Assembly (NCBI GenBank): GCA_016190505.1
Contig: JACPQM010000024.1
Span: 1 to 64,000, forward strand
DNA: 64,000 nucleotides
Direction of reading: 5' to 3'
DNA from: Chloroflexota bacterium
Lineage (GTDB): Bacteria > Chloroflexota > Dehalococcoidia > JACPQK01
Part shown: piece after piece, positions 12,362-15,219 of the stretch
Layout of the letters: each line of letters opens with the position of its first letter
How positions within the stretch are numbered: the first letter of the stretch is position 1
Program-made: the position numbers and the translations under genes
Notes under the pieces: generated by a model
What the model was told of the DNA's origin: nothing
Databases searched by the model: none
The model's input: the letters and a program-made list of their open reading frames with translations, nothing else

Positions 12362-12514
12362 CTGGTGTCGGGACGAGGCAATGTCTTGCCTTGTCCGCTG
12401 CCGTCAATGCGGGTCCAGCAGGTCGGCGGTGTATACTTGACCTTTGGAAAATGCTTACCGAGGCCTGAGCTGCTAGAGACCTTGCGGACCCACGCCAGAA
12501 AGACCTGTGGGAAA

Positions 12515-13768
12515 ATGACGAGAGAACAGGGCAATACGCTGTCACAAGAAATCCACGACTTCTTCGAGCGCCCGTCCAATCCGGTCGCCTGGACAGTCCA
12601 GGCCGTGATCTATGCCCTCATCCTGTTTTCGGTAGCCAGCGCGGCCATCGAATACCTGTACACGGGGATGTTCGACCGGTACAGGGTGTTCTTCACGCGC
12701 GCCGAACACGTAGTGCTGGGCGTTTTCACCATCGAATACGTGGCGAAGCTGGCCACGGCCCCGAGTAGGCGGAAGTTCGCGGTCAAGCCGCTGAGCATCA
12801 TTGATTTTCTGGCCATTTTCCCGGGCTATCTGGCAATACTGCTACCGTTCGTGGTCAACACGTCTGAAGTGCGGGCACTCCGGCTACTACGGTTGCTCCG
12901 GTTCAGCCGGGTGCTTCGTATCCTGAAGCTGCTACGCATGGAGTTCTTTGGCAAGCTCTTCCGCTTCAACAACACCATCCTCCAGGCGGTCCTTCCCGTT
13001 ATCGTTCTATTCATCGTCTTGAAGGGCATCGTCTGGACCCTGGAATATCACGGCTTCTGGGTCCGAGACCTTAACCTGGGCGAGCTGTTTGCCATCATCG
13101 GCTTCGCCCTCGGTATCGCCCTGGCCCAAAAGGTGGCCACCACTTATGAGAAGTTTCTGGGAATAGAGGAGTCCGTGGTGCGCCTGGCCGCCTCTCTGTC
13201 GTCCCTTAGAGAGATCATTGACTACGTCAGACCGGGAGAGGGCACGTGCGTGACCCACGCATGGGGCAGCGCGTTCCTGCGTGCCCTGCAAGACCGCGAG
13301 GCGACGAGTAGCGCTATGGTGTTGCCGAACCGGCAGCTCTATCAGGCCGTGGGGACCCTTGAGCAGCAGCCAGCCGAGATGGCTGTAACCTATGCGCAGT
13401 TGGTGGAGACGGCGACCTATTGCCTGAACCGCAAGATGCGCCTCACGCCCAGGCCGTACGATTCCATGTTGCAGCAGGCCACGGTGCTGTACCTGGCCAT
13501 GCTGGCCCTGTTCCTGCCGGGGTGGGCTGGCATGCTGTCCGTGTTGCTAGGGACCTATGTGCTCTATGGCCTGTACCACCTGACCCAGGACCTGGACTCC
13601 ATTGTGGGTGGCGAGTTCCGGCTGATCAGTATTGACCTGTCCGAGCTGGAGCGCTTCGTTCAGAGAGATGAGGTGCCTGGTGTGGGCCTGGCGGCAGAGC
13701 CACGGCCTTCTGGTCAAGCTTCAGGTCTGTCTCCCGAGGGCTCAGGGAGTCTCCAGGGAAGCCACTGA
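12515..13768 (+). CDS. voltage-sensor domain fused to a bestrophin-like (DUF4239-type) channel domain
   Basis: Residues 23-141 form a textbook voltage sensor: S1 (about 23-48), S2 with Glu74 in FTIEYVAKL, S3 with Asp97 in IIDFLAIFPGYL, and an S4 with eight positive residues at every third position (R120, R123, R126, R129, R132, R135, K138, R141). What follows is not a potassium-channel pore: no TVGYG filter or pore helix is present. Instead there are transmembrane segments at about 157-177 and 188-206, then LAQKVATTYEKFLGIEESVVRLAASLS, and a late hydrophobic pair (about 328-360) ending in LTQDLDSIVGGEFRLISIDLSELE, a pattern that resembles bestrophin/DUF4239 anion-channel-like proteins. The bestrophin-like call is by pattern and is less secure than the voltage sensor. 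The start is the Met at 12515 rather than the open frame's earlier codons. Confidence 0.75.
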   Translation: MTREQGNTLSQEIHDFFERPSNPVAWTVQAVIYALILFSVASAAIEYLYTGMFDRYRVFFTRAEHVVLGVFTIEYVAKLATAPSRRKFAVKPLSIIDFLAIFPGYLAILLPFVVNTSEVRALRLLRLLRFSRVLRILKLLRMEFFGKLFRFNNTILQAVLPVIVLFIVLKGIVWTLEYHGFWVRDLNLGELFAIIGFALGIALAQKVATTYEKFLGIEESVVRLAASLSSLREIIDYVRPGEGTCVTHAWGSAFLRALQDREATSSAMVLPNRQLYQAVGTLEQQPAEMAVTYAQLVETATYCLNRKMRLTPRPYDSMLQQATVLYLAMLALFLPGWAGMLSVLLGTYVLYGLYHLTQDLDSIVGGEFRLISIDLSELERFVQRDEVPGVGLAAEPRPSGQASGLSPEGSGSLQGSH

Positions 13769-14268: not shown

Positions 14269-15219
14269 ATGGCATTGAACGAGCGAGAGGTCATGGCAGC
14301 TCTGCGTGTCCTCGTAGGCGTGGCCAAGGCGGACGGGGTGATTCACGAGGCGGAGAGGGCGGCACTCGAGGCCGCTCTGGCTGGCGTACAGTTGCCTGAA
14401 GGGATGTCGCTAGACAAGCTCCTTCAGGAGACTGTGGACGTCGGAGCGCAGCTTGCGCTGTTGGAGTCAGCCGAAGCCAAAGGGAAGGTCTACGAGGCGG
14501 CCGTGAGCTTGGCATACGCTGAACGAGAGGGATCAACGGAAGAGAAGAAGCTCCTCGAGCAAATCCGTTCGGGGCTTGGTATTGCAGAAGAAGAGGCCAC
14601 GCTCGCGACCAGGCTTGCCAGGGAGATCGGCGAGACACTGGTCCCTGGCGCGGTAGAGCCCGTGACCGATCCGGAACAGCGGGAGAAAGCGGTAGACTCC
14701 GACATCCGAAAGTACTCCGTTATTGCCGCTGCCCTGGGCGCGTTTCCCATCCCTGTAGCGGACCTCGTGGTGAACCTCGGTGTGGTGGGCCTGCATACCA
14801 AGATGTTCCACGATATCGGGCGGTCCTACGGCTTCACGACGACCAAAGAGCAGGTGAAAAACCTTATCGGTGGTGTCGGCGTGGGCACCGGGGCACGTGT
14901 GGCCGTGGTGAGTCTGGCAAAGTTCATACCGGGATGGGGGAGCGTGGTCGGCGCCACGACCAACTTTGTAGCCACCTATGCCTTGGGCAAGGTTGCCAAG
15001 AGGTACTATACCAGCCAGGGCCAGGCTGACCTCAAGGACCTGAAGGACCTGTTCGCCTCCGCACAAAAAGAGGGCCGCGTGGTTTACGACCAGAACCGGG
15101 CGGAGATTGAAAGCAAGGCGAATGCCAGCAAGGCCAGGCTCGAGGCCCTTGCCACCCAGCTCAGGCAGGGCAGCATCACGCCGGAGGAATATCAGAGGCA
15201 AGTTGCCGATCTCGGCTGA
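14269..15219 (+). CDS. TerB-like / DUF697-like membrane-associated protein with SHOCT tail
   Basis: A 316-residue three-part protein. Residues about 1-125 form an acidic all-helical TerB-like domain (LRVLVGVAKADGVIHEAER; AYAEREGSTEEKKLLEQI). Residues about 145-245 are hydrophobic and glycine-rich (AALGAFPIPVADLVVN; GWGSVVGATTNFVATYALG) like DUF697. The last 30 residues (LATQLRQGSITPEEYQRQVADLG) are a SHOCT-type motif. The start is fixed by a strong AAGGAGG. TerB-type domains are linked to metal or stress response, but no specific function can be assigned. The zinc-ribbon gene 62 bases downstream may be co-expressed. Confidence 0.7.
   Translation: MALNEREVMAALRVLVGVAKADGVIHEAERAALEAALAGVQLPEGMSLDKLLQETVDVGAQLALLESAEAKGKVYEAAVSLAYAEREGSTEEKKLLEQIRSGLGIAEEEATLATRLAREIGETLVPGAVEPVTDPEQREKAVDSDIRKYSVIAAALGAFPIPVADLVVNLGVVGLHTKMFHDIGRSYGFTTTKEQVKNLIGGVGVGTGARVAVVSLAKFIPGWGSVVGATTNFVATYALGKVAKRYYTSQGQADLKDLKDLFASAQKEGRVVYDQNRAEIESKANASKARLEALATQLRQGSITPEEYQRQVADLG

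Follow-up and report, generated by a model that had tools for sequence, protein, structure and literature searches.

A predicted S1–S4 voltage sensor fused to a divergent bestrophin-type pore domain in Chloroflexota

The 64,000-nucleotide stretch of Chloroflexota DNA analysed here (the window) encodes a 417-residue protein which, judging from its sequence, very probably joins an S1–S4 voltage-sensor domain to a bestrophin-type tail. The best explanation for this architecture is likely to be a homopentameric, voltage-gated channel of the bestrophin type, a reading which we hold with fair but not high confidence. The fuller proposal, that five S1–S4 sensors gate one pentameric bestrophin-type pore and that the protein represents a family outside the tetrameric pore-loop superfamily, we put at slightly better than even.

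The fusion gene and its voltage-sensor domain

The open reading frame lies on the plus strand, with an ATG at 12515 and a stop codon that ends at 13768. A longer reading frame from a GTG at 12365 is possible, but the start of the homolog described below lies near the ATG. A promoter scan of the gene gave nothing informative. The first 142 residues make up a complete voltage sensor, and the approximately 240 residues that follow contain neither a K+ nor a Na+ channel pore. The predicted features are:

12515–13768, + strand: coding sequence of the voltage-sensor/bestrophin fusion, 417 residues, with a full-length homolog (locus L010) at 49–52% identity
12593–12661, + strand: S1 helix, residues 27–49, placed by the Ion_trans match over 29–169 and hydropathy; mid-S1 without Asp
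12686–12754, + strand: S2 helix, residues 58–80, with E64, F71 and E74 in a charge-transfer-centre pattern (Kv alignment)
12788–12853, + strand: S3 helix, residues 92–113, with D97
12866–12940, + strand: S4 helix, residues 118–142, with eight Arg/Lys at every third position
12941–12976, + strand: junction EFFGKLFRFNNT, residues 143–154, S4–S5-linker-like; start of the bestrophin match, aligned with FxxxGSIL (hmmsearch and hhalign)
12977–13048, + strand: bestrophin-type TM1, residues 155–178
13070–13159, + strand: bestrophin-type pore helix TM2, residues 186–215, extending into the cytosolic part; one long helix in the low-confidence model
13103–13129, + strand: predicted neck F197, I201 and Q205, aligned with KpBest I62, I66 and F70 and identical in the homolog
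13160–13426, + strand: cytosolic helical region, residues 216–304, the least conserved part between the homologs (34%)
13445–13456, + strand: TPRP, residues 311–314, aligned with bestrophin TPxP by MAFFT and shifted by three residues in hhalign
13457–13594, + strand: bestrophin-type TM3 and TM4, residues 315–360, 64% identity with the homolog
13595–13666, + strand: post-TM4 segment, residues 361–384, at the bestrophin EDPFGxxxNDLPL segment, with the Pro-Phe pair lost

A preliminary description of this DNA had claimed a complete S1–S4 domain with Glu in S2, Asp in S3 and eight Arg/Lys at every third position of S4, and all of this held up. The Pfam family Ion_trans matched residues 29–169 with an E-value of 1.1e-12 (48.2 bits vs a cut-off of 25). 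The match covers profile positions 5–136 of 241, which is the sensor half without the pore. In hhalign, residues 9–152 of the two-sequence full-length alignment matched Kv channels with 98.7% probability, and the match ended there. The S4 series comprises R120, R123, R126, R129, R132, R135, K138 and R141; none of 100,000 shuffles of the fusion protein exceeded seven in this register. Since mid-S1 has no acidic residue, an Hv1-like proton pathway through the sensor is not favoured.

The only full-length homolog was found in a second Chloroflexota genome, a groundwater MAG (locus L010, contig JACQOP010000039.1), and thereby the check for the same fusion in related genomes, suggested in the preliminary description, had a positive outcome. 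Identity to the window protein is 52% over residues 8–379 and 49% overall. Because the fusion occurs in two genomes at about 50% identity, an assembly chimera is excluded. By region, the identity is 65% for TM1–TM2, 64% for TM3–TM4, 48% for the sensor and 34% for the cytosolic part. The lower conservation of the sensor (48%, vs 64–65% for the pore helices) would fit a protein in which a bestrophin-type pore works without voltage gating and the sensor domain serves for membrane anchoring, for assembly or for sensing lipids or redox state. Bestrophins do conduct without a sensor, and a fusion alone is no proof of coupling. Still, we regard this reading as unlikely, since a mere anchor needs none of the gating features and both homologs keep all of them: the eight S4 charges, the short junction, and E64/F71/E74 in S2 and D97 in S3, the latter four residues being identical in the L010 protein.

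Affinities of the tail

Residues 145–393 of the two-sequence full-length alignment matched bestrophin positions 10–292 of 305 at 92% in hhalign (E 6.8e-7, 246 columns), and the tail alone reached 91.7% against the bestrophin profile. Since the Kv match extends only over residues 9–152, the boundary between sensor and bestrophin-type part was placed at residues 143–154. A bestrophin HMM was made from 12 sequences, of which 11 came from plasmid records and one was E. coli YneE. It was run with hmmsearch against 1,241 ORFs, drawn from the window, from parts of the same genome and from other loci. Here YneE ranked first (1e-123), followed by the L010 protein (3.5e-6) and the window protein (4e-5), with the next ORF at 1.4. 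The match is collinear over TM1–TM2 (profile positions 9–80) and TM3–TM4 (207–263). With the Pfam family Bestrophin_2 (PF25539) the window protein scored 22.1 bits vs a cut-off of 27 (E 1.3e-4), and the L010 protein exceeded that cut-off both as a whole (27.6 bits) and with its tail (29.9 bits). MAFFT alignments of the tail with bestrophins keep the TPxP motif before TM3; a joint alignment of sensors and bestrophins put the bestrophin N-termini wrongly on the sensor. The bestrophin resemblance proposed in the preliminary description is thus borne out, and the profile search of the tail that it had named as able to refute this idea returned bestrophin over nearly its full length and no match to a Kv or Nav pore. 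Both motifs that it had quoted are present as well; LAQKVATTYEKFLGIEESVVRLA ends the second pore helix and LDSIVGGEFRLISIDLSELE lies after the last helix.

The tail departs from true bestrophins at several positions. Among residues that are invariant in the 12-sequence bestrophin alignment, F70 is replaced by Q205 and R78 by K213, and three more (E81, W86 and G87) are lost. After TM4, SIVGG in the window protein and SLMGG in the homolog take the place of the Pro-Phe pair (EDPFG). The neck of bestrophins is formed at KpBest positions I62, I66 and F70 (PMC8496536). At the aligned positions F197, I201 and Q205, two of the three residues are hydrophobic, vs Ile-Ile-Phe or Ile-Phe-Phe in bestrophins. 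In view of the altered neck, the changes at R78, E81, W86 and G87 and the lost Pro-Phe pair, we regard the tail as a divergent pore domain of the bestrophin superfamily rather than as a standard bestrophin. In the middle of the neck, the Na+-conducting KpBest has Ile and Cl− bestrophins have Phe, and the KpBest mutation I66F favours Cl− (PMC8496536). The anion-channel character given to the tail in the preliminary description finds no support here, as the neck has the Ile of KpBest, not Phe, at its middle position and Gln at its third. Chloride selectivity should therefore not be assumed. A lysine within the hydrophobic TM1 (K170, in VLKGIVW, 12977–13048) is conserved in both homologs.

The altered neck and clasp (Q205 in place of an invariant Phe, loss of the Pro-Phe pair) could also indicate that the sensor controls a bestrophin-fold domain that does not conduct and acts as a scaffold or signalling module, comparable to the non-channel effector of voltage-sensing phosphatases. 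We consider this improbable, as TM2, the putative pore helix, belongs to the best-conserved parts of the protein, which carries no catalytic or signalling domain. More doubtful still is a chance match of hydrophobic helices. In its favour, scores from single sequences are modest and the alignment with the bestrophin profile is poor in the cytosolic part of the tail. Against chance, however, stand the controls: in hhalign, reversed bestrophin gave 1.6%, block-shuffled bestrophin did not exceed 6.8%, none of 90 ORFs of the same sequence set that have TM-like segments surpassed 2.3% with the exception of YneE and the two homologs, and the rest of the 1,241 ORFs scored far lower in hmmsearch. The collinearity across TM1–TM2 and TM3–TM4 argues in the same direction, as does the even higher score of the homolog, which shares 54% identity in the tail. 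A chance hydrophobic match was rejected on the reversed, shuffled and ORF controls.

DUF4239 (PF14023), which the preliminary description had named together with bestrophins, does resemble the tail, yet more weakly (33% in hhalign vs 92%), and it was rejected as the closest family. The resemblance lies at TM2. In Pfam the L010 tail matched DUF4239 with an E-value of 0.36 (10.8 bits vs a cut-off of 32), and the family is not listed among the Pfam matches of the window protein. One DUF4239 protein is among the best matches of the tail profile within the phylum, at 6.6e-4 in a single genome; the family has no sensor domain.

Structure models added little. The full-length AlphaFold2 model, from two sequences, had a mean pLDDT of 37 and was useless; in a fold search it placed Kv and KpBest chains on top at non-significant E-values of 0.14–0.5. 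The model of the tail (mean pLDDT 53) shows the expected helices, with a long second helix of approximately 50 residues. The best 50 PDB matches in its fold search were all KpBest (TM 0.56–0.70, E 3e-3 to 3e-2), a result that is partly circular and was given little weight because the alignment behind the model contained five bestrophins from viral contigs. The tail profile had a sole match among PDB sequences, a Klebsiella bestrophin with an E-value of 1.1, which is non-significant alone.

The absence of a TVGYG filter and pore helix, also claimed in the preliminary description, was confirmed: inspection of the sequence after S4 revealed neither TVGYG nor any other selectivity filter or pore loop. 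TVGYG is carried by several ordinary Kv relatives in the phylum. That such relatives are common there and that the sensor is Kv-like might suggest a degenerate potassium- or sodium-channel pore, but this was rejected and is the least credible reading, since the tail lacks a filter, scores 1.6% against the Kv profile and 0.2% against the Nav profile in hhalign, and follows an Ion_trans match that stops at profile position 136 of 241.

Proposed gating and related proteins

Voltage gating would follow from the architecture of the fusion protein, and the pentameric state, conduction, coupling, gating direction, selectivity and physiological role given here are predictions. S4 of a voltage sensor ends in the cytoplasm and bestrophins begin there, so the two topologies can be joined without strain. 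The divergent bestrophin pore domain follows directly after S4 and consists of TM1 and TM2, a helical region in the cytosol, TM3 and TM4, and a clasp segment behind TM4. The protein would probably assemble from five subunits, with TM2 lining a single central pore and the five voltage sensors arranged about it. Upon depolarisation, outward movement of the S4 arginines would pull residues 143–154, a short amphipathic stretch that may double as S4–S5 linker and as the N-terminal helix of the bestrophin domain. The corresponding region of animal bestrophins is packed on the calcium clasp, which in turn controls the neck. The pull from S4 might widen the neck at F197, I201 and Q205 and let ions pass, chloride alone being less likely than cations or a mixture. 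The channel could act as a voltage-dependent leak or safety valve.

Known users of the S1–S4 domain couple it to other effectors. Kv channels have a tetrameric pore loop, in Hv1 the sensor itself conducts, and voltage-sensing phosphatases carry a phosphatase. They have the voltage-sensor module in common with the fusion protein but differ in effector, and to our knowledge none of them has a bestrophin-type pore. From the side of the tail, the nearest family is that of KpBest and other bacterial bestrophins (PDB 4WD8, 6IV4 and others; PF25539), which share the helix order, the collinear match and the Ile in the middle of the neck. They differ in having no sensor domain, a neck of Ile-Ile-Phe instead of Phe-Ile-Gln, and the Pro-Phe clasp motif that is absent from the fusion protein.

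Two other groups of proteins come closer in concept. Bestrhodopsins of algae are described in PMC12291454, which cites Rozenberg et al. (2022), as pentameric rhodopsin-bestrophin fusions whose pore is surrounded by 5 or 10 rhodopsin modules. On that description they likewise fuse a membrane sensor to a bestrophin channel, but they belong to eukaryotic algae and absorb light through a rhodopsin, whereas the fusion protein is bacterial and has an S1–S4 domain. Pfam gave no rhodopsin match for the fusion protein, whose N-terminal domain is Ion_trans; the 7pl9 chain, named as a rhodopsin with a bestrophin domain, turned up in our search. VCCN1, a chloride channel of plant thylakoids, is a bestrophin homolog for which voltage dependence is described and which needs an N-terminal extension for activity (PMC9076864). 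It has no S1–S4 domain and its charged helix lies outside the membrane (PMC9076864), whereas the fusion protein has a complete four-helix sensor. No natural S1–S4/bestrophin fusion is described in the titles and abstracts of the literature searched, which is weak evidence of novelty as the search missed preprints and most subscription journals.

If the proposal is correct, the fusion would be a voltage-gated channel built unlike the known ones, in which S4 movement couples to an unrelated pore, probably of five-fold symmetry. It would then allow a direct test of what the link between S4 and pore needs. Bestrophins would gain a defined route to voltage gating, whereas the voltage dependence of VCCN1, which has no S1–S4 sensor, is puzzling. 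The fusion might also be a scaffold for engineered voltage-gated channels.

Distribution and other observations

The architecture is rare, with two family members found in the genomes sampled. Further orthologs were not found in samplings of 148, 393, 197, 400 and 392 genomes, which overlap in part, nor in the plasmids or viral contigs searched. PF25539 itself gave no match at an E-value of 0.001 in the 148 relatives from the class, so the class may have no bestrophin-type protein other than this divergent fusion. The gene neighbourhoods in the window genome and the L010 genome are unrelated.

Downstream in the window, positions 14269–15219 encode a 316-residue protein with an unusual combination of a TerB/DUF533-like N-terminus and an EcsC/DUF697-like C-terminus, assigned by weak Pfam matches that are mostly near or below the cut-offs. 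Over 30 IMG/VR contigs classed as viral (within L089–L124) encode Kv-type channels with S1–S4, and some of these contigs may be host sequence. Bestrophin genes occur on a few IMG/VR contigs that are likewise classed as viral (L064, L065, L069 and L128–L130), several of them near a contig end and possibly on host flanks. Lastly, in two plasmid records (L053 from Sphingobium and L052 from Burkholderia) the bestrophin gene directly adjoins cydB of the cytochrome bd oxidase.
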